From positions 1-42,154 of the forward strand of contig JBDKTO010000058.1 in the NCBI GenBank assembly GCA_039680175.1: 42,154 nucleotides of DNA, given 5' to 3'. The position numbers were made by a program, and so were the translations under genes. A model generated the notes under the pieces. The model saw only the letters and a list, made by a program, of their open reading frames with translations. It was not told where the DNA came from and ran no database searches. The DNA is from Veillonellales bacterium. GTDB taxonomy: Bacteria > Bacillota > Negativicutes > JAAYSF01. The stretch's first letter is position 1. Each line of letters opens with the position of its first letter. This document shows positions 2,203-25,523 of this stretch, piece after piece.

Positions 2203-3162
2203 CTGGAAAATTTTTTCGCGTCATTCTCTGCTGCAGCCATACTGACTTGGGACAACTTGATCAATTTCAAAATCATATTGCTCAGTATAGTGATTGAAGC
2301 TTTACCCTTCGTCTTGCTTAGCGTTATTGTCTCAGCAATCCTTCATAATTTTGTCACAGAAGATATGATCAGCCGCATTATACCAAAAAATAAGTTTTTA
2401 AGCATAGTCCCCGCCTCGTTACTCGGCATCGTGCTGCCGGTATGCGATTGCGGGATGGTTCCTATCGTCCGCCGCTTAGTGAAAAAAGGTGTTCCTCTGC
2501 CTACGGCGATATCTTTTATGCTGGGCGCGCCCATCCTAAATCCGCTGGTAGCTGCGGCAACCGCCTTTGCCTTCAAAACGAATACTGCCATGGTTTTATT
2601 CCGTTTGGGAACAGCTTTCTTGGTGGCATGTTTTGCCGGTTGGCTAACCAGCCTGTTTTTCAAAGGCAATGAATTAAAACCTCTGACCGCAAATCAGCAG
2701 CATTCGTGCGGATGCTGCGGCCCCCACACCGATCAATATTTAATTGACGAGCTAACCTTTACCGGCAAGCTGCTGCGAACTATTCATGACGCCAGTAATG
2801 AGTTTTTTGAAATGGGCAAGTATTTGCTTATCGGGGCAATATTGGGAACGCTGGCTCAAATAGTGCTTTCCCGAGAGATTTTACTATCCATTGGGCAGCA
2901 CCCTGGGTTTTCGGTTGGCGTAATGATGCTGTTTGCCTTTGTCATTTCAGTATGTTCAGCCGCTGATGCATTCATCGCCGCTTCATTTTATACGAGCTTT
3001 TCAGCCGGCTCCCTTGTTGCTTTTATGGTGTTTGGGCCAATGCTTGACCTAAAAAACACGCTGATGCTGCTGCACACATTTCGCTTTCGCTTCGTGGTTT
3101 GGCTGGCATTCGTTGCAGCAACTCTATGTGCCGGCGCGGCCTATGTGATCAATTTATTATAA
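2203..3162 (+). CDS. UPF0718 (DUF318) family permease
   Basis: The conserved CDCGMVPIVRRLVKKGVP motif and the following SFMLGAPILNPLVAAAT helix identify the UPF0718/YraQ-type permease family, predicted to move metal or oxyanion substrates. A cytoplasmic loop carries HSCGCCGPH, a likely metal or metalloid ligand. About eight hydrophobic helices are visible. The start is uncertain. The only strong SD (GGGGGAG, 2190-2196) is six bases before an in-frame CTG at 2203, which gives an N-terminus beginning ENFFASFSAAA. The first conventional in-frame start is TTG 2257, with no good SD. The next gene is the usual partner of this family, 14 bp downstream, so the two probably act as a complex. Confidence 0.85.
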   Translation: MENFFASFSAAAILTWDNLINFKIILLSIVIEALPFVLLSVIVSAILHNFVTEDMISRIIPKNKFLSIVPASLLGIVLPVCDCGMVPIVRRLVKKGVPLPTAISFMLGAPILNPLVAAATAFAFKTNTAMVLFRLGTAFLVACFAGWLTSLFFKGNELKPLTANQQHSCGCCGPHTDQYLIDELTFTGKLLRTIHDASNEFFEMGKYLLIGAILGTLAQIVLSREILLSIGQHPGFSVGVMMLFAFVISVCSAADAFIAASFYTSFSAGSLVAFMVFGPMLDLKNTLMLLHTFRFRFVVWLAFVAATLCAGAAYVINLL

Positions 3163-3176
3163 GGGGGGAACTCTGT

Positions 3177-3971
3177 TTGCAGCACAGACACAGGTATAAG
3201 TACAGGTACATATTTGACATCGACGCTTTGCTTCGATCCATAATCCTGTTTGGATTTATGGGGCTGCTGCTATGGCTTATTCATACAAACCAATTAACCC
3301 TGTATATCAACCCAAAGTTCTCAGTACTAGTTGAAACAGCGGGCTATTTGCTATTTCCCCTGGGAGTCGCACAAATGCTAAGCATAATCCAGCCAATCCC
3401 TTTTCTCAACAGCCCTCATCGGCACAATCATGCCAGCCGCTTGCTGTATTTACCCTTTATCGCCATACTTGCATTGGCCTTTTTATTGCCAAACAATACT
3501 CTAAATGCCAATCTGGTAAATAACAAAGGTCTGAACAGCCAATTGACCGCGCCTGCTCCCGGTTATGAGCTGCCCAGACCATTAGCCGCCAAGCTCCGCC
3601 GGTATTCGCTAATCGAAGTAACGGATCGCGACTACGCTGAAATCATAAACGAACTGCAGTTCTTTTCTCAGGAATATCTGGGCAAGGAAATAACAATGAC
3701 CGGGTTTGTCTTCCGGCCTCCCGGAATTACAAAGAATCAATTTTCACTAGTTCGCTACGTCATAGTATGCTGCACGGCAGACGCTTTGCCTTATGGCGTT
3801 TTATGCGAATGTAAAAACGGGGAAAAATTCAAGGACGGAACATGGCTTTCCATTAAGGGTGTTATTCAACAAAGTAATTATGAGGATAAAGTCGTTCCGG
3901 CTATTAAGATCACTTCCCTAAAACAAGTGAAGGAACCGCAGACGCCTTACGTCTTTCCCCCTAATCAATAA
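3177..3971 (+). CDS. TIGR03943 family (DUF1980) permease subunit
   Basis: TTG 3177 is preceded by AAGGGGGGAA at the right spacing, so it is chosen over an ATG at 3099 that would overlap the permease by 60 bases. The product is 264 residues. The N-terminal half has about three hydrophobic segments around RSIILFGFMGLLLWLI and the next 80 residues. The C-terminal half is a soluble domain with CCTADALPYGVLCEC, typical of the TIGR03943 family. This family normally lies next to UPF0718 permeases, as here, and is thought to form a two-part transporter. Substrate is unknown. A hairpin terminator follows at 4022. Confidence 0.85.
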   Translation: MQHRHRYKYRYIFDIDALLRSIILFGFMGLLLWLIHTNQLTLYINPKFSVLVETAGYLLFPLGVAQMLSIIQPIPFLNSPHRHNHASRLLYLPFIAILALAFLLPNNTLNANLVNNKGLNSQLTAPAPGYELPRPLAAKLRRYSLIEVTDRDYAEIINELQFFSQEYLGKEITMTGFVFRPPGITKNQFSLVRYVIVCCTADALPYGVLCECKNGEKFKDGTWLSIKGVIQQSNYEDKVVPAIKITSLKQVKEPQTPYVFPPNQ

Positions 3972-17488: not shown

Positions 17489-17676
17489 TTACCTTAACCC
17501 GCCTCATATTATTAGTAAAAGCTTATAAATTTTATAAATTTATTTAATTAGACTTATATTATATTGTATATTATACTTTGGAATGTGTAAAGGCCTTCAC
17601 AGCGCTGTCAACGTCAAAAACAAACTTACTAAAATTTACGAAAATCAGTCTACAACATGTGTGGGAGGATTACGAC

Positions 17677-18966
17677 ATGAATCGTTTAATTCGCGGGGTA
17701 ATCGTTGTCGTTTTAATGGCTGTCCTTTGGTGCTTCCCTGTACCGCAAGGGTTGTCTGTACAAGCGTGGCATCTGTTTGCTATATTTGCTGCCACAATTC
17801 TTGGTTTTATTTTACAGCCTATGCCGCTGGGCGCGGTAGCGCTTGCTGCTATTACTCTTACTGGTTTAACTGGAATCTTAAAACCGCAGGAAGCTTTATC
17901 GGGATTTAGCAATACGACAATCTGGCTGATTGTGTCCGCTTTTCTTTTTGCCAAAGGCTTTATTAAAACAGGGCTTGGTCGAAGAATCTCCTATAAATTG
18001 ATTGAATTATTTGGCAATAGTACATTAAAGCTCGGTTATACCTTAGCAGTCAGTGATTTTATTATCAGTCCGGCGACGCCATCGAATACGGCCAGATCCG
18101 GCGGTATTATGTTTCCTATTGTGCGCAGCCTGGCATCTGCTTTTGGATCAGAACCAGGGCCTACGGCGAGAAAAATTGGTGCATATATTCTGGTAACTTC
18201 TTTTCAGGCAGATGCGCCAATTGCGGCGACATTCTTAACGGCTTGTGCACCAAACCCGCTCATGGCGACTTTAGCCATGAAGACAGCGGGTATAGACCTT
18301 AGCTGGGGATTATGGGCCTCGGCTGCAATTGTCCCCAGCCTTTTATCCCTCTTAATCATACCGTATTTTATTTATAAGGTTTATCCGCCGGAAATTAAGA
18401 AAACACCGGAAGCACAACAGTTGGCGCGTAAGGAACTTGCCAACATGGGTCCAATGACAAAAGCCGAAAAAATAATCAGCTGTGTCTTCATTGGTGCATT
18501 GCTTTTATGGAGTACGTCACAATATACACACCTGGATGCCACTATAGTTGCCCTGCTGGGGGTATCCGTCATGCTGATGACAGAAGTCCTGACCTGGAAA
18601 GATGTGCTGGGGGAACAGGGCGCCTGGGACGGTATGATGTGGATGGGCGGCATCGTTGGTCTGGCTGACTCGCTGAATAAAGTGGGATTTATTCCCTGGT
18701 TTGCCCAAAGTGTTACCGGCATGCTGGGCGGCATATCATGGATTCCGACACTGGGTGTTTTATTCGTTGTGTATTTGTACAGTCATTATGCTTTTGCCAG
18801 CCTTTCGGCACATGCCACCGCAATGTATGCAGCGTTTCTTGCCGTAGCAGTAAGCGCGGGAGCACCTCCCTATCTTGCTGCCATGGGTCTTGCCGTTTTA
18901 TCGAATCTTATGGCTGGACTTACACATTATGGAAATTTATCGGTCTTTGGTAATCTATACAGTTGA
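17677..18966 (+). CDS. ttdT: DASS (SLC13) family anion transporter, probable tartrate carrier, short C-terminus
   Basis: ATG 17677 follows GGGAGGATTACGAC; the frame opens 99 bases earlier but without SD. The product is 429 residues. Recognisable DASS features are SGFSNTTIWLIVSAFLFAKG, GLGRRISYKLIELFG and the ligand/Na+ motif SPATPSNTARSGGIMFPI; the family's second SNT-like motif would be near LAVLSNLMAGLTHYGN. E. coli TtdT, the tartrate:succinate antiporter, is about 487 residues and continues for roughly 45 residues after the equivalent point. Here the frame stops at GNLSVFGNLYS, so the last helix seems missing. ttdA follows after 68 bp. Confidence 0.85.
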   Translation: MNRLIRGVIVVVLMAVLWCFPVPQGLSVQAWHLFAIFAATILGFILQPMPLGAVALAAITLTGLTGILKPQEALSGFSNTTIWLIVSAFLFAKGFIKTGLGRRISYKLIELFGNSTLKLGYTLAVSDFIISPATPSNTARSGGIMFPIVRSLASAFGSEPGPTARKIGAYILVTSFQADAPIAATFLTACAPNPLMATLAMKTAGIDLSWGLWASAAIVPSLLSLLIIPYFIYKVYPPEIKKTPEAQQLARKELANMGPMTKAEKIISCVFIGALLLWSTSQYTHLDATIVALLGVSVMLMTEVLTWKDVLGEQGAWDGMMWMGGIVGLADSLNKVGFIPWFAQSVTGMLGGISWIPTLGVLFVVYLYSHYAFASLSAHATAMYAAFLAVAVSAGAPPYLAAMGLAVLSNLMAGLTHYGNLSVFGNLYS

Positions 18967-19034: not shown

Positions 19035-19934
19035 ATGACAAAGGACGAAGCGGTATCCCGCTTAACGGATACAATTGCCAAATTTGTCGCGTACACAGGC
19101 AAAGCATTGCCTGATGATGTAAAAAGAAAGCTGCAGGAGCTTGGGAAGCAAGAAGATACTCCGCTGGCAAAGATTCTCTATGAGACAATGTTTAAAAACC
19201 AGGAACTCGCTGTGCAACTCAATCGTCCTAGCTGCCAGGATACCGGCGCGCTTCAGTTTTTTCTCAAGTGCGGTGCCAGCTTTCCCTACATTGGCGAGCT
19301 AGACAAAATCTTGCGTGATGCCGTAGTTCAGGCAACGGTTAATGCGCCGCTGCGCCATAATTGTGTCGAAACTTTTGACGAATATAATACGGGCAAAAAT
19401 GTTGGCACGGGGGTCCCGTCAATTTTCTGGGATATCGTTCCGGAAAGTGACCGGCTTGATATCCATACTTATATGGCTGGTGGCGGATGCACGCTGCCGG
19501 GTAAAGCTATGGTGCTTATGCCCGGTGAAGGGTATGAAGGCGTAACCCGCTTTGTTATGGATGTTATGACAAGCTATGGGCTAAATGCCTGTCCGCCGCT
19601 ATTAGTCGGCGTCGGGATTGCAACCTCGGTGGAAACAGCCGCCGTACTTTCAAAGAAAGCGCTGATGCGTCCCCTTGGCAGTCATAATCCCAACGAACGT
19701 GCCGCTTCGATGGAAAAATTATTAGAAGACGGCATCAATAAAATCGGGTTAGGCCCGCAGGGGCTTACAGGAAAAAATTCTGTACTGGGCGTTCACATTG
19801 AAAATACGGCAAGGCATCCATCGGTTATCGGCGTGGCCGTAAATGTGGGCTGCTGGTCGCACCGCCGTGGGCACATAGTTTTTGATAAAGAACTGAATTA
19901 TACGATTGATTCTCATACGGGGGTGAAAATCTAA
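19035..19934 (+). CDS. ttdA: L(+)-tartrate dehydratase subunit alpha
   Basis: The product is 299 residues and aligns along its length with my recollection of E. coli TtdA (about 303 residues). Shared blocks include RPSCQDTG, the [12 protein letters not shown]-type block, [37 protein letters not shown] and the terminal GCWSHRRG. The three Cys in CQDTG, NACPP and VGCWSHRR are the expected [4Fe-4S] ligands of class I hydro-lyases. With TtdB it dehydrates L-tartrate to oxaloacetate. The order regulator, carrier, alpha, beta supports tartrate over fumarate as substrate, although class I fumarases are close relatives. SD AGAGGATGATTATT precedes the ATG. Confidence 0.93.
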
Positions 19935-20545
19935 TGGCAAAAAAGATTTTAACAACGCCAATTAAAGCGGCAGACTTAGCCGATCTCAATGTAGGTGATA
20001 TTGTATACTTGACTGGTTACCTTACAACTTGTCGTGACATAGCGCATCGCCGGCTTATTGAAGAAGGACGCAAGCTGCCGGTTGATCTTGATGGCGGCGC
20101 CATTATTCATGCCGGGCCGATTATTCGAGCTTTGAGCGATGATAAGTATGAATTGGTAAACGTCGGACCAACGACCAGTATGCGCATGGAAAAATTTGAA
20201 GAAGAATTTATTAAGGAAACCGGCGTCAAACTCATTGTCGGCAAAGGCGGTATGGGTGAAGGCACTATGAAAGGGTGCCGCGATTATAAGGCGCTCCACG
20301 CTGTCTTCCCGGCGGGCTGCGCTGTTGTAGCCGCGACCTGTGTAGAAAAAATCGTCGATGCCAACTGGAAAGACCTCGGAATGCCGGAAACTCTCTGGAC
20401 ATGCAAAGTCAATGAATTCGGTCCGCTCATTATTTCCATTGATACGCATGGCCGCAATCTTTTTGAAGAAAACAAAGTGAAATTCAATGAAAAAAAGGAA
20501 GCGGCGATTGCTGAGATTTGCAAACATGTAAGTTTTATCAAATAG
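19934..20545 (+). CDS. ttdB: L(+)-tartrate dehydratase subunit beta
   Basis: The start overlaps the ttdA stop by one base (TAATG), so the subunits are translationally coupled. The product is 203 residues, the size of E. coli TtdB (201). Conserved blocks are [13 protein letters not shown] at the N-terminus, [34 protein letters not shown], the FPAGCAV loop, LGMPETLW and [12 protein letters not shown]. It forms the heterotetramer with TtdA and contributes the catalytic domain that binds the carboxylates. A very stable terminator hairpin lies 32 bases after the stop. Confidence 0.95.
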
Positions 20546-20669: not shown

Positions 20670-22298
20670 TTATTTGCCGCTCTTTTTACCCATACCTATA
20701 AACATCAAAAAAGCTTCTGCCAGTTTCGGATCAAATTGAGAACCTATTTGGGACTCAATTTCACCCAGCGCCGCTTTCTTATTCATTGTCCTCTTGTAAG
20801 GGCGATCATGCGTCATACTGTCATAGCTGTCGACAAGGGAAAAAATCCGGGCCAATAAAGGAATCTTATCCCCTTTCAGGCCAAAGGGATAGCCCATGCC
20901 GTCCCAGTGTTCATGCAGTGCCAAAATGATGTCGGCAACCAACGGTTCTCCGATTGATTGAGCCATTCGATAGCCTGTTTCACTATGATTTTTCATAACA
21001 CTCCACTCCTGCGGCGTCAACGGGCCTTGTTTCCCCAATATCTCAACCGGAATGGTTACCTTGCCAATATCGTGAAGCACACTCAGCCGAGTGATTAATT
21101 TTATGTCAATAGCTGCCTTTTCAATATCGAGAAACTCAATAAATTCAGTCGCCAATTGTAGTACTCTAGCGTTATGGCCCTCGTTCACAAAGCAGCGGCT
21201 AATCAGCATGTTTTCCATGTTAGCGACGATGCTACGACGAAAATTCTTGCTTTTTATCAGTTTATCGTTGTACATTCTGTGCTCGGCTATACTTAACAAT
21301 TCAGTAAGATGAAGGTTTCCTGAAACTGTGGTCGCCGCACCCAGTGCCGAGCTTAAAGCAATAACACAATCCCGGTTTGCGTCACAAGCTCTTCTAATGC
21401 GCTCACAAACCGTACTGCAGGCTGACTCATCCGTACTGGGCATGATAATGACAAACTCATCGCCGCCCCAGCGGGCGATAACGTCTGTCTGCCGGCAAGA
21501 TTTCTTCAACACATTTGCCATCGCCGTCAAAAGTAAATCTCCCTGCCGGTGCCCAAAAACATCATTGACCAGTTTAAGCCCATTCATATCCGCCATGACG
21601 ACACTCAGCGGCACGGCTTTTCCTCTTGCCAATTCCGCCAGCAAGACACTTTCAACATAAGCGCGATTATTTAACATTGTTAGCTTGTCATGATAACTGA
21701 GAAACCGTATTCTTTCTTCCGCCTTAAGTTTTTCAGTTATATCTGTCAGCATCATCATTACCAAAAAGCACTCGTCAGAATCGTCCGGCTGCGGCAAAAG
21801 TTTGCATTCAACCCGAATGCTTTTGCCGCTTATTTGAAAAGCCGCCGGAACCCGTTGCAATTCTGTTTGCCCAGACACAAAATCGGCTAGAAAAACTCGT
21901 TTCAAAATGGCCTGCAGTTGTCGCTGCAAGGTGTTATTATCCTGGCTGAGCAGGGAAATAATCAAGTTGCCGGCAATTTTTTTGCCAAAAATTCTGATAC
22001 ACTCCGCACTGTACTGCTGGTCAACCTTTAAATCCCGTCCAAACGTCAAAAATCCTTGATTTGCATTATCTAATAAATTTTGCAATTCATTTTGCCGGCG
22101 CTGCAAAATTTGCTCTTGGCGATCGCTAATGCGAAATATCTTAGTGGTTGTTCTAAATAATTTTTGGTAATCACGGGCCAGCCGCTTATAACAGGGCAGC
22201 AGATCGTTGCCATAATAGCGCTGACTGGCAAGATTAGACGCAGCGAATCGCAGTACTTCTTTCTCCTCTTCAAATAATTCTTCATTTTTTTTAGACAT
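20670..22298 (-). CDS. PAS-GGDEF-HD-GYP protein (c-di-GMP synthesis/degradation)
   Basis: The product is 542 residues and cytoplasmic. Residues about 1-75 look helical; a PAS-like domain follows (about 80-200, ending in the linker VMMMLTDITEKLKAEERIRFL). The GGDEF domain has an intact WGGDEF site, and RQTD five residues before it is a canonical inhibitory I-site. The C-terminal HD-GYP domain has HDIGK, NHSETGYR, LHEHWDGMGYP and DSYDSMT. It may therefore both make and break c-di-GMP. It is the last gene of the siaB-siaC-siaA-like operon, 17 bp after the phosphatase gene, in the position of SiaD. SD AAAGGTG lies before the ATG. Confidence 0.92.
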   Translation of the reverse strand: MSKKNEELFEEEKEVLRFAASNLASQRYYGNDLLPCYKRLARDYQKLFRTTTKIFRISDRQEQILQRRQNELQNLLDNANQGFLTFGRDLKVDQQYSAECIRIFGKKIAGNLIISLLSQDNNTLQRQLQAILKRVFLADFVSGQTELQRVPAAFQISGKSIRVECKLLPQPDDSDECFLVMMMLTDITEKLKAEERIRFLSYHDKLTMLNNRAYVESVLLAELARGKAVPLSVVMADMNGLKLVNDVFGHRQGDLLLTAMANVLKKSCRQTDVIARWGGDEFVIIMPSTDESACSTVCERIRRACDANRDCVIALSSALGAATTVSGNLHLTELLSIAEHRMYNDKLIKSKNFRRSIVANMENMLISRCFVNEGHNARVLQLATEFIEFLDIEKAAIDIKLITRLSVLHDIGKVTIPVEILGKQGPLTPQEWSVMKNHSETGYRMAQSIGEPLVADIILALHEHWDGMGYPFGLKGDKIPLLARIFSLVDSYDSMTHDRPYKRTMNKKAALGEIESQIGSQFDPKLAEAFLMFIGMGKKSGK

Positions 22299-22315
22299 GA
22301 GTAAGCACCTTTCTG

Positions 22316-24178
22316 CTAATGCAAAGAGAAACCCAGTAAGGTAATATCATCGCGCTGGGGCTCATTGCCCATATACTGATGTAAAATGTCGCCAAAGGCC
22401 GCTGCTTGTTGACCCATGTCTTTCGTCTTTTGAGCAAGAATGACTTGAAGCAGTCTTTTCCGGCCAAAAGGATAATCTTTGTCGCCGCCATTCTGATCAA
22501 TATATCCGTCTGTTGTCAAATAAAAGCAGTCACCTGCTTGGATTTCCCATTCGTAGTTGGTAAACGCCAAGTCGTTCCTGGAGCTTCGATATCCGATGCT
22601 CCATTTATCACCTTGGATCATTTCCACATTATTTTTTCGATGAATATACAGGGACATTTTTGCCCCGGCAAATAGCACTCGCTTATTACGTTCAATGCGG
22701 CAAATACCAATATCCAATCCATCGTCAGTGATCTGCCCGTGGTCGTTCCGATGCAGAGTTTCCTTCATTCTTCGATTGAGTTCGGTCAAAATATCGGCCG
22801 GTTCGCTATGATTGTGATCAACAATCTGATTAAGAATTGCATTTACCGTCATTGTCATTAGCGCGCCTGGGACTCCATGTCCGGTACAGTCAATCAAAGC
22901 AACGAGACTTCGTTCATCATCAATACGGCGTATCCAGTAAAAGTCCCCGCCCACTACATCCCGTGGCTTCCAAAGAATAAAGTAGTTGCCAAGTACAGCC
23001 CCGATCTCTTCCTCTTTTGCCAGGATGGCTTCCTGAATTCTTTTTGCGTACTCAATGCTGTCTACAATCTTTTGATTTTTTTCTGCCAGTTCACGCGTTC
23101 GTTCCGTTACCTGTTTTTCCATTTCCCGCGTAAGCAGCAGGGCGCGTTTCAAGGGATCGGCAATACGGCGGGAAACCACGTAAAAAATAAAGATCATCAA
23201 AACCAGCGCGATAATGCTGGAGATGATTGTATACAACTTAATATTGCTGAGAATTGCAATGCTCTCGCTGCGGGGAATTTGAGCCACTAGTTTCCAGTTC
23301 GTTGATTTCATCACCTTATAGGCTAAATCAATTGTTTCCCCGTTGTCATTTACGTATTCACTAATTTGGGGTGAAACTGTCCCGGCCTGACGATCTTCAA
23401 TAACCCGAACAGCTACCTGTGTCGGAACAAGCTCCGTGAGATATCGTCCGTTATCATTTAAATTGTCAGACAAATTAATTTCCCCATTGTCATCGACCAG
23501 CCACAATCTGCTATTCGGTCCAAACTTATATCTTTGGAATTCCTGGGCGATGTCTTTCAGACTCAATCCCACCCCGGTTACCCCTACAGGACGCTTCCTA
23601 TCGCCCATCAGAGCATTGAGAAAGACATATGTATCCTGCCGTCCACTATTGTAATCAAGGTTTAGCTCGACACTCTTACCCGATGCGAGCATATCATAGA
23701 ACCATTTCGCATTCGGATCGGTCCTGGACATAACCTGCAGCATCTTTGAATCTTCGGCCCAATAATGATTGGTAATGGCACTGACAATAAAAGTATTGGC
23801 ATAATCATAATTCTTGGCAATATTATTAATTTTTGTTTTGGAGTATTTACCCAATTTTTCATCCTGTTCGGCACCGGTAACCCAGTCATTAATGGCAGGA
23901 TCTGCAGCCAAAATTAAAGCTGTTTCTTGTGCACGGGCAATACGGCCGTCAATTTTGGCCGATATTGATTCGATAATATAAACGATATCGCGAGATTTCA
24001 GCTTATCAACAACGGCATTGCGAGTAATGAAATAACTCATACCGCCGGTAATCATCACCGCCAGAACGATGGTCAGGCAAGCTAATACAACGACCTTGAT
24101 TGTGCCGCTATCGTAAATAACGCTTTGCCGTGCCGGACGGGCGTCATCTGCTTCCCGGCCGCCGCTAGCCTGATTCAT
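22316..24178 (-). CDS. SiaA-like membrane PP2C (SpoIIE/RsbU) phosphatase with extracellular sensor
   Basis: The product is 620 residues. TM1 (about 28-50, VVLACLTIVLAVMITGGMS) and TM2 (about 320-345, IISSIIALVLMIFIFYVVSR) flank an extracellular dCache-like sensor of about 270 residues. A HAMP-like/coiled linker (LLLTREMEKQVTERTRELAE) leads to the PP2C domain with VVGGDFYW, LIDCTGHGVPGALM, the ITDDGLDIGI block, TTDGYIDQNGG and RDDITLLGF, which are the metal-binding sites. It should dephosphorylate the SiaC-like protein when a signal binds outside. The start overlaps the siaC stop by four bases (ATGA). Confidence 0.92.
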   Translation of the reverse strand: MNQASGGREADDARPARQSVIYDSGTIKVVVLACLTIVLAVMITGGMSYFITRNAVVDKLKSRDIVYIIESISAKIDGRIARAQETALILAADPAINDWVTGAEQDEKLGKYSKTKINNIAKNYDYANTFIVSAITNHYWAEDSKMLQVMSRTDPNAKWFYDMLASGKSVELNLDYNSGRQDTYVFLNALMGDRKRPVGVTGVGLSLKDIAQEFQRYKFGPNSRLWLVDDNGEINLSDNLNDNGRYLTELVPTQVAVRVIEDRQAGTVSPQISEYVNDNGETIDLAYKVMKSTNWKLVAQIPRSESIAILSNIKLYTIISSIIALVLMIFIFYVVSRRIADPLKRALLLTREMEKQVTERTRELAEKNQKIVDSIEYAKRIQEAILAKEEEIGAVLGNYFILWKPRDVVGGDFYWIRRIDDERSLVALIDCTGHGVPGALMTMTVNAILNQIVDHNHSEPADILTELNRRMKETLHRNDHGQITDDGLDIGICRIERNKRVLFAGAKMSLYIHRKNNVEMIQGDKWSIGYRSSRNDLAFTNYEWEIQAGDCFYLTTDGYIDQNGGDKDYPFGRKRLLQVILAQKTKDMGQQAAAFGDILHQYMGNEPQRDDITLLGFSLH

Positions 24179-24567
24179 TTCTCTTCCTCCACCGGCAGCA
24201 GTTCAAAGGGCATTGTCAGATCCTCTTTAAATTCTTCCGCACATTCCTTCGCCGTCTCATTTTCCACATCATAATACCACCGTACAGCGATTTTTTGCCC
24301 GTTTTGATGTGCTTCTTCCAGCCTTTCTAAGATCATCATCACGCACTTCGAACTGCTTGTATTAATATAAGGCATGTTGATATGTATTTCCAACGATGCC
24401 CCCTCTTCACTATCGGTCAAATAATCATTGAGCCAGGAAAAAACCGGTTCATAAAATTTAAAAGCATTTTCCGGATATGACTGACCTTCAATTCGCAGCC
24501 TTTGTTTTTGTCGGTCAAATTGAACCTCCGGTGTCGACTTCGTCTTCATAAAATACAATTCCTGCAC
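24175..24567 (-). CDS. SiaC family (DUF1987) regulatory phosphoprotein
   Basis: GTG 24567 is preferred because AGGGGGATTAAC sits at the right spacing and the product then begins like Pseudomonas SiaC, about ten residues before STPEVQF; an ATG at 24585 gives a longer form. The product is 130 residues. Conserved parts are QSYPENAFKFYEPV, INMPYINTSSSKCVMMILERL and the terminal AEEFKEDLTMPFELL. The NTSS motif (Thr about residue 70) is where SiaB phosphorylates SiaC in Pseudomonas. It should shuttle between kinase and phosphatase and, in one state, act on the c-di-GMP enzyme encoded downstream. Translationally coupled on both sides. Confidence 0.9.
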   Translation of the reverse strand: MQELYFMKTKSTPEVQFDRQKQRLRIEGQSYPENAFKFYEPVFSWLNDYLTDSEEGASLEIHINMPYINTSSSKCVMMILERLEEAHQNGQKIAVRWYYDVENETAKECAEEFKEDLTMPFELLPVEEEK

Positions 24568-24577
24568 GTTAATCCCC

Positions 24578-25123
24578 CTAAACATTAACCTTTAACGTAA
24601 AAAATAATAGACTGTCATCCAGTTTTTCCACTGAATAATGCAGCGGCCGGGTTGCTCTTCGCGCCATATTGATTAGCCCCAACCCTGCGCCGAGACTGCC
24701 GGGTGGGAGTTCTTTTTTCATCTGTTCCTTGAAAAGTTTTTTCAAACCAGCTTTATCCAAGCGTGATATTTCATCTAATTTTGCAGTAAGAGCGCTCACA
24801 TCATTATTCTCGATGATATTACCTGCACACACAAAATATCCGTCCGGCGTTTTGCCAATGGTAATAATACCAGAATTCGCGATCCTATCCCCATGCGGTG
24901 ATCCTCGCTTAAGCACACCATAATTTTTAATATTTTGTGTCTGTTCGATAAACACCGAAAACACATTGTATGTCTCGTTCTGGGATATTGCTTCCGTCTC
25001 TAGATATTTTTTAACCGCGTCACCTAACTCTTCAATAATTTCCTGTGTAAACCGACCTGCAAAATTGATTAATACTCCATAGTCCTGCAAAATTCTTTGC
25101 AGCTTCAGCAAATCAAATTCCAT
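24578..25123 (-). CDS. SiaB family protein kinase
   Basis: The product is 181 residues and belongs to the DUF6272/SiaB group of GHKL-type ATPases. The ATP lid and G-box region is seen in GSLGAGLGLINMARRATRP, and an Asn-containing helix precedes it. It lacks a dimerisation histidine, consistent with Ser/Thr kinase action of anti-sigma-factor type. It should phosphorylate the SiaC-like protein encoded next, whose start lies just inside this stop region. SD AGGGAG precedes ATG 25123. It is the first gene of the four-gene signalling operon. Confidence 0.88.
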   Translation of the reverse strand: MEFDLLKLQRILQDYGVLINFAGRFTQEIIEELGDAVKKYLETEAISQNETYNVFSVFIEQTQNIKNYGVLKRGSPHGDRIANSGIITIGKTPDGYFVCAGNIIENNDVSALTAKLDEISRLDKAGLKKLFKEQMKKELPPGSLGAGLGLINMARRATRPLHYSVEKLDDSLLFFTLKVNV

Positions 25124-25523
25124 ATAAGCACACTCCCTGGTTCCCAGCTGAAATTTGTATATTAGTTGTAAGTTTCGCTATCTTTGTCCCAAATCCTGTA
25201 TCAAATGAGACTTTCTTCAGGTGAAGTTTGAACTTTATCGGAAGCAGTCGAATTATGGGATTCTCACCATCGTGTATCTGGAGTTTCTAACAATCCTTTT
25301 AAAGCCCCTCGAAAAAAGTCAACCCTTGTCCTAAAAGTTACAGTGTACTATTTTTCCCGCTATTGGCAGATTGATTGCCCGGGCAGTTTAGTGCAAAAAA
25401 GTAAAAGAAGCAAAAAGTACGTCCCCTTTGCTTCCGTCCCCTTTGCTTCCGAAGATCAAAAAGAAAAAGGAGCTTTCCTTATTTTTTAAAAATTCGTGTC
25501 TTAACAAAAGGGGGTACTACACC
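25124..25523. other. Intergenic region upstream of siaB and marR-like genes
   Basis: About 400 bp without a supported gene. It contains the tandem 15-bp repeat at 25421-25450 and must carry the promoter of the leftward signalling operon, which was not pinpointed. Confidence 0.5.
25421..25450. repeat. Two perfect tandem copies of a 15-bp unit
   Basis: GTCCCCTTTGCTTCC occurs at 25421-25435 and again at 25436-25450 without mismatch. A flanking AAGTAC and GAAG are not repeated. Function unknown. Confidence 0.9.

Follow-up and report, generated by a model that had tools for sequence, protein, structure and literature searches.

The 42,154-nucleotide stretch of contig JBDKTO010000058.1 from a Veillonellales bacterium (assembly GCA_039680175.1), referred to here in its full length as the window, carries a set of genes resembling the siaABCD switch of Pseudomonas aeruginosa biofilms; here, the last gene codes for a protein with both a GGDEF and an HD-GYP domain. 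The question raised by this locus is what the phosphoprotein SiaC does to such an output. The preliminary description of the window proposed an enzyme with two activities, which SiaC could switch from making cyclic diguanosine monophosphate (c-di-GMP) to degrading it and back. The analysis presented here points instead to a SiaABC-type partner switch with, most likely, a SiaC-activated diguanylate cyclase as its output and an HD-GYP domain that is probably non-catalytic and perhaps binds c-di-GMP. The four genes are as follows.

24578..25123, minus strand: siaB, a SiaB-family kinase (DUF6272) of 181 amino acids with the catalytic-type motif E60-QTQN, assigned with Pfam and NCBIfam.
24175..24585, minus strand: siaC, a SiaC-family phosphoprotein of 136 amino acids, assigned with Pfam and by its match to SiaC structures.
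22316..24178, minus strand: a siaA-like gene for a membrane phosphatase of 620 amino acids, assigned with Pfam and by its match to the SiaA PP2C structure.
20670..22298, minus strand: the output gene, 542 amino acids, with a predicted SiaC-docking stalk followed by PAS-like, GGDEF, and HD-GYP domains (Pfam and AlphaFold).

These genes and their motifs, observed directly in the window, likely form a single operon in the order B-C-A-output: siaB and siaC overlap by 8 bp and siaC and siaA by 4 bp, and a gap of 17 bp separates siaA from the output gene. Both the coordinates and the family matches agree with the (nearly) overlapping SiaB, SiaC, and SiaA genes named in the preliminary description. 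The siaB product matches DUF6272 (3.8e-42) and the NCBIfam model of the SiaB family kinase, NF038262 (201 bits against a cut-off of 85), and has the E-Q-x-Q-N motif, which is conserved in most of the surveyed loci. The siaC product matches the Pfam SiaC family (PF09345, 5.5e-45) and the Pseudomonas SiaC structures 6kko and 7e6g (E = 2.5e-31). The siaA-like product combines an extracytoplasmic dCache-like sensor, recognized slightly below the Pfam cut-off, with two transmembrane helices and a C-terminal PP2C/SpoIIE domain (Pfam, 4.4e-23) that retains the metal-binding motifs and matches the solved PP2C structure of SiaA (6k4e, E = 9.3e-49). The output protein matches the Pfam GGDEF (3e-32) and HD_5 (5.6e-30) models. 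All four proteins score below the cut-offs of the NCBIfam Pseudomonas equivalogs NF038263 to NF038266 (300.7 of 700 for SiaA, 143 of 225 for SiaB, 138 of 150 for SiaC, and 117.9 of 290 for SiaD).

The predicted coupling of the switch to this output is supported by a conserved gene order (see below) and by a docking motif matching the one to which SiaC binds in SiaD. The coiled-coil stalk of Pseudomonas SiaD has two repeats to which SiaC binds, as mapped in the SiaC-SiaD crystal structure; the SiaD contacts include K77, V78, R80, I81, S82, D83, R84, Y85, and Q86, and T68 of SiaC comes to lie between the helices, in contact with S82 and Q86 (PMC8457831). The AlphaFold model of the output protein in the window (mean predicted local distance difference test score of 88) has a long N-terminal helix, residues 34 to 78, and the following elements were delineated there.

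22065..22199, minus strand: stalk helix, residues 34-78, the predicted SiaC-docking coiled coil (profile search and AlphaFold).
22116..22142, minus strand: predicted SiaC-binding motif K53-I-F-R-I-S-D-R-Q61, aligned with K77-V-A-R-I-S-D-R-Y85 of SiaD.
21741..22058, minus strand: PAS-like domain, residues 81-186.

The PAS assignment, made already in the preliminary description, agrees with the predicted secondary structure and fold of this region, but no Pfam model, including those of PAS, matches it. A phmmer search with the N-terminal part of the output protein alone returned only chance hits (E of 0.17 or worse), so a profile was needed; it was built from the stalks of seven SiaC-linked Negativicutes outputs, with no Pseudomonas row. 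Among all PDB sequences, the best match to this profile was SiaD (7e6g_A, E = 1.1e-5), with both SiaC-binding motifs covered. In the stalk alignment, the equivalent of Asp83 is present in all 92 sequences and that of Ser82 in 81; these are the residues that meet N67, T68, and S69 of SiaC. Among the heptad core positions appear to be the Ser and Gln of the motif, a polar break at which the SiaC threonine would enter. The output protein can be predicted from this pattern to bind SiaC through its R-I-S-D coiled-coil motif; the Q86 contact is not kept.

A scan of GTDB genomes yielded 80 SiaC loci, to which further loci from genome searches were added, giving 101 after the removal of duplicates. 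In 97 of these, a stalk gene is located beside siaC. The most frequent order, B-C-A-GGDEF-HD-GYP, recurs in 32 deduplicated Firmicute loci from Negativicutes, Clostridia, and Paenibacillaceae, followed by A-B-C-GGDEF in 18 loci. The preliminary description had proposed such a survey of gene orders, and within the B-C-A operon type the last gene turned out to be conserved. Outside it, the stalk remains constant and the catalytic part varies. By output, the 97 loci divide into 43 with a GGDEF-HD-GYP protein (among them three that encode an additional stalk output), 26 with GGDEF alone, 18 with a histidine kinase alone, 4 with a PucR-type protein, 3 with PAS-like and GGDEF domains, 2 with a class III nucleotide cyclase, and 1 with a CheA/Hpt-like protein. 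At least 16 output changes are required on the SiaC tree, a rough parsimony count because the underlying alignment offers few columns and the branches are weak.

Several of these loci have unusual layouts. In L196 and L197 (genomes G386 and G614), siaC lies between a divergent stalk-histidine kinase gene and a stalk-GGDEF-HD-GYP gene, and a single SiaC may serve both outputs. Genome G614 has a second SiaA-SiaB-SiaC locus (L198, contig C3), exceptional in that its neighbor is a PAS-histidine kinase without a recognizable stalk. In four Negativicutes loci (L023, L024, L080, and L124), a stalk protein ending in a PucR/CdaR-type helix-turn-helix is followed by a separate GGDEF gene. In Spirochaetes, there are proteins that combine the SiaC stalk with a class III adenylate/guanylate cyclase domain (L101, positions 2518-3570, and L078, positions 541-2178), and in Desulfovibrionaceae (L086 and L096), the stalk-GGDEF unit is found at the C termini of proteins of ∼1280 amino acids. 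A scan of viral contigs with SiaC found no relative.

Synteny and co-occurrence, both observed directly, tie the stalk to SiaC at the level of genomes as well. Of 398 phylum genomes, 10 gave a match to the stalk profile, and these are exactly the genomes in which SiaC exceeds the Pfam cut-off; in all 10 the stalk was on the siaC contig, within about 2.5 kb of siaC, and no match was found in the remaining 388. Among 60 nearer relatives, the stalk was present in all 14 SiaC-containing genomes. One further strong hit came from a fragmented, 73% complete genome (G033) whose genus has SiaC, and there were two weak hits elsewhere (E of 7e-5 and 3e-4). Since it was SiaC-linked stalks that went into the profile, presence of the stalk beside SiaC is partly a matter of construction, and the informative part of this co-occurrence is the absence of the stalk elsewhere. 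These data bear on the idea that the output gene is a passenger in the operon, governed by its own PAS-like domain, with SiaC acting elsewhere. The output does contain such a sensor domain, but a passenger is highly improbable, given that stalk and SiaC co-occur by genome and by gene even where the catalytic output has been swapped and that the stalk profile matches the SiaC-binding motifs of SiaD.

The phospho-acceptor region of SiaC, Y-I-N-T-S-S, is retained in the window, with the acceptor position as follows.

24358..24360, minus strand: codon of Thr76, by alignment the equivalent of the phospho-acceptor Thr68 of Pseudomonas SiaC.

This position is occupied by Thr or Ser in every SiaC locus with a readable site, except for L025 and L026, where it is Ala. 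In these two genomes, siaC and the gene for a stalk-GGDEF-HD-GYP protein are adjacent and both retained, SiaB is absent genome-wide, and SiaA is absent beside siaC. Joint loss of the kinase and the phosphosite, with the SiaC-output pair kept, is as the switch model predicts; both genomes belong to one genus, so they represent one event and not two. The same case is relevant to the sign of the regulation. SiaC could act as an inhibitor of the GGDEF output, the reverse of its effect in Pseudomonas, as the intervening PAS-like domain could invert the signal and the sign is not readable from sequence. Such a brake is nevertheless quite unlikely: the docking motif is that of SiaD, which is activated by docking of SiaC (PMC8457831), and the non-phosphorylatable SiaC of L025 and L026 is no less compatible with a constitutive activator than with a constitutive brake.

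The catalytic part of the output protein contains the following features.

21255..21695, minus strand: GGDEF domain with the I-site RQTD and the active site RWGGDEF (Pfam and alignment).
20694..21176, minus strand: HD-GYP domain with the HD and GYP signatures retained (Pfam, alignment, and AlphaFold).
20916..20918, minus strand: codon of Leu461, at the position of a metal-ligand His (H276 of PmGH) in active HD-GYP enzymes (alignment).

The I-site noted in the preliminary description is indeed present, five residues N-terminal of GGDEF, and the checked GGDEF catalytic residues (active site, metal, and substrate) are invariant in all 41 PAS-like-GGDEF members, including that of the window. In contrast, the HD-GYP domain, previously described as intact, has kept its two signatures but not its complete metal site. 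The essential metal ligands of PmGH are H189, H221, D222, H250, H276, and H277, and the H276A replacement abolishes its activity (PMC4159591). In the window, the equivalent of H276, the first His of the double-His ligand, is Leu461, and that of E185 is Val; the set of essential ligands is incomplete in this domain at H276. Such loss of metal ligands is directly observed throughout the family: the H276 equivalent is missing from 35 of 38 HD-GYP domains, the H277 equivalent from 16 of 38, and those of K225 and H250 from several members. As a control, all 22 other HD-GYP domains of the window genome with a readable motif retain the H276-equivalent His. That genome (G000, 4.1 Mb) encodes a rich set of these domains, with 26 matches.

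Furthermore, the HD-GYP domain has been lost three times (in L019, L036, and L083) with the stalk and GGDEF kept, and the converse, loss of GGDEF with HD-GYP kept, was not seen among the family members. Truncation at contig ends was rejected as the cause of the missing domains, as these three genes have their stops inside contigs. A bifunctional output flipped by SiaC between synthesis by GGDEF and breakdown by HD-GYP would be in line with the presence of both signature motifs in one polypeptide behind the stalk, with the six of eight PmGH metal ligands left in the window, and with the double His retained in a few relatives (L020, L071, and L084). The decayed metal site, the deletions of HD-GYP but never of GGDEF, and the invariant cyclase residues make this reading unlikely. 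Judging from these alignments, the HD-GYP domain of the window most likely lacks phosphodiesterase activity. On the precedent of DvhD from Desulfovibrio vulgaris, whose metal-free HD-GYP domain is a c-di-GMP receptor without hydrolysis (PMC13090378), it may have a non-catalytic role; the HD-GYP part of the predicted model is among those matching DvhD.

The SiaC-activated cyclase can be envisaged by analogy with Pseudomonas SiaABCD as regards phosphorylation, docking, and the direction of regulation. An extracytoplasmic cue would be read by the dCache-like domain of the SiaA-type phosphatase, resulting in dephosphorylation of SiaC at Thr76, and SiaB would rephosphorylate it. Unphosphorylated SiaC would dock on the R-I-S-D motif in the N-terminal coiled coil of the output and stiffen the parallel dimer, turning on the GGDEF diguanylate cyclase, and phosphorylation of SiaC would block this docking. 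The stalk has one motif where SiaD has two, so that probably one SiaC would bind per chain and two per dimer. The C-terminal HD-GYP could serve as a dimerization domain or as a c-di-GMP-binding feedback domain.

Several points weigh against this scheme. The SiaD contact Q86 corresponds to Glu in the window and to Gly in many relatives, and the SiaC-contact columns, taken together, show no significant excess of conservation over the other stalk columns (permutation p of 0.21), so that the argument comes down to the S82/D83 core. The PAS-like domain lies between the stalk and GGDEF, unlike in SiaD, and signal transmission may therefore differ. In 4 of the 101 SiaC loci, no stalk gene is in view. 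The GYP signature is kept in all readable HD-GYP members, so some selected function of this domain persists, and the H276 equivalence is drawn from sequence alignment to PmGH, PA4781, and PDE3.

Beyond the window, SiaABC is quite likely to be a general bacterial partner switch, with the docking stalk as an exchangeable plug across output classes (GGDEF, GGDEF-HD-GYP, histidine kinase, class III nucleotide cyclase, PucR-type regulator, and CheA/Hpt-like) and a SiaC able to serve two outputs. In that case, SiaC would form a hub under phosphorylation control, through which a membrane sensor acts on second messengers, two-component signaling, and transcription. Besides diguanylate cyclases, the stalk motif predicts histidine kinases, nucleotide cyclases, and regulators of transcription as proteins under SiaC control. 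Literature descriptions of SiaC (DUF1987), studied so far with a single output, were found for P. aeruginosa only, although earlier remarks on its homologues may exist. The conserved Firmicute operon, the decay of its HD-GYP site, and the docking stalk as a sequence-recognizable module spread over six output classes are new. The stalk motif allows SiaC targets to be identified from sequence and offers a clean test for the idea of exchangeable coiled-coil control common to bacterial dimeric outputs. The locus also cautions against equating a GGDEF-HD-GYP annotation with a bifunctional enzyme.

In the vicinity of the operon, the spacer between siaB and a gene for a MarR-type regulator contains two perfect tandem copies of CGTCCCCTTTGCTTC (positions 25420-25449). 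On the other side, two genes at 19035-20545, which by eye resemble those of an L(+)-tartrate dehydratase or fumarase made up of an alpha and a beta subunit, follow a DASS-type transporter gene (17578-18966) and a divergent LysR-type regulator gene; this pair stops just short of the convergent Sia operon.

The closest known system, SiaABCD of P. aeruginosa (PMC8457831, PMC7647112, PMC7278518), shares with the window the kinase, the phosphoprotein with a Y-x-N-T-S-S motif, the PP2C membrane phosphatase, and a GGDEF output with an R-I-S-D docking stalk, predicted in the case of the window. It differs in gene order (A-B-C-D versus B-C-A-D) and in having two docking motifs in SiaD versus one; the window system has additional PAS-like and HD-GYP domains and a dCache-like sensor, and misses the Sia equivalog cut-offs. 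DvhD similarly has an HD-GYP domain without the full set of metal ligands, but there the HD motif itself is lost and the protein is membrane-bound; it has been described with PAS and HD-GYP domains and no GGDEF or SiaC-docking stalk (PMC13090378). HsbA-HsbD and BgrV-BgrR, as they are presented in PMC8457831, also have a partner-switch phosphoprotein that controls a diguanylate cyclase, but their partners are canonical STAS proteins and not members of DUF1987. That 2021 structural paper suggested in general terms that DUF1987 proteins may modulate adjacent proteins (PMC8457831). The RsbU/RsbT work has proposed an exchangeable coiled-coil toolkit, in a main text without SiaC or SiaD (PMC12143880). 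In that toolkit, similarly to the switch proposed here, a partner activates a dimeric output by stiffening its coiled-coil linker, and outputs of different classes exchange this linker; the partner there is RsbT, and in the window it would be the phospho-regulated SiaC, with its STAS-like fold.

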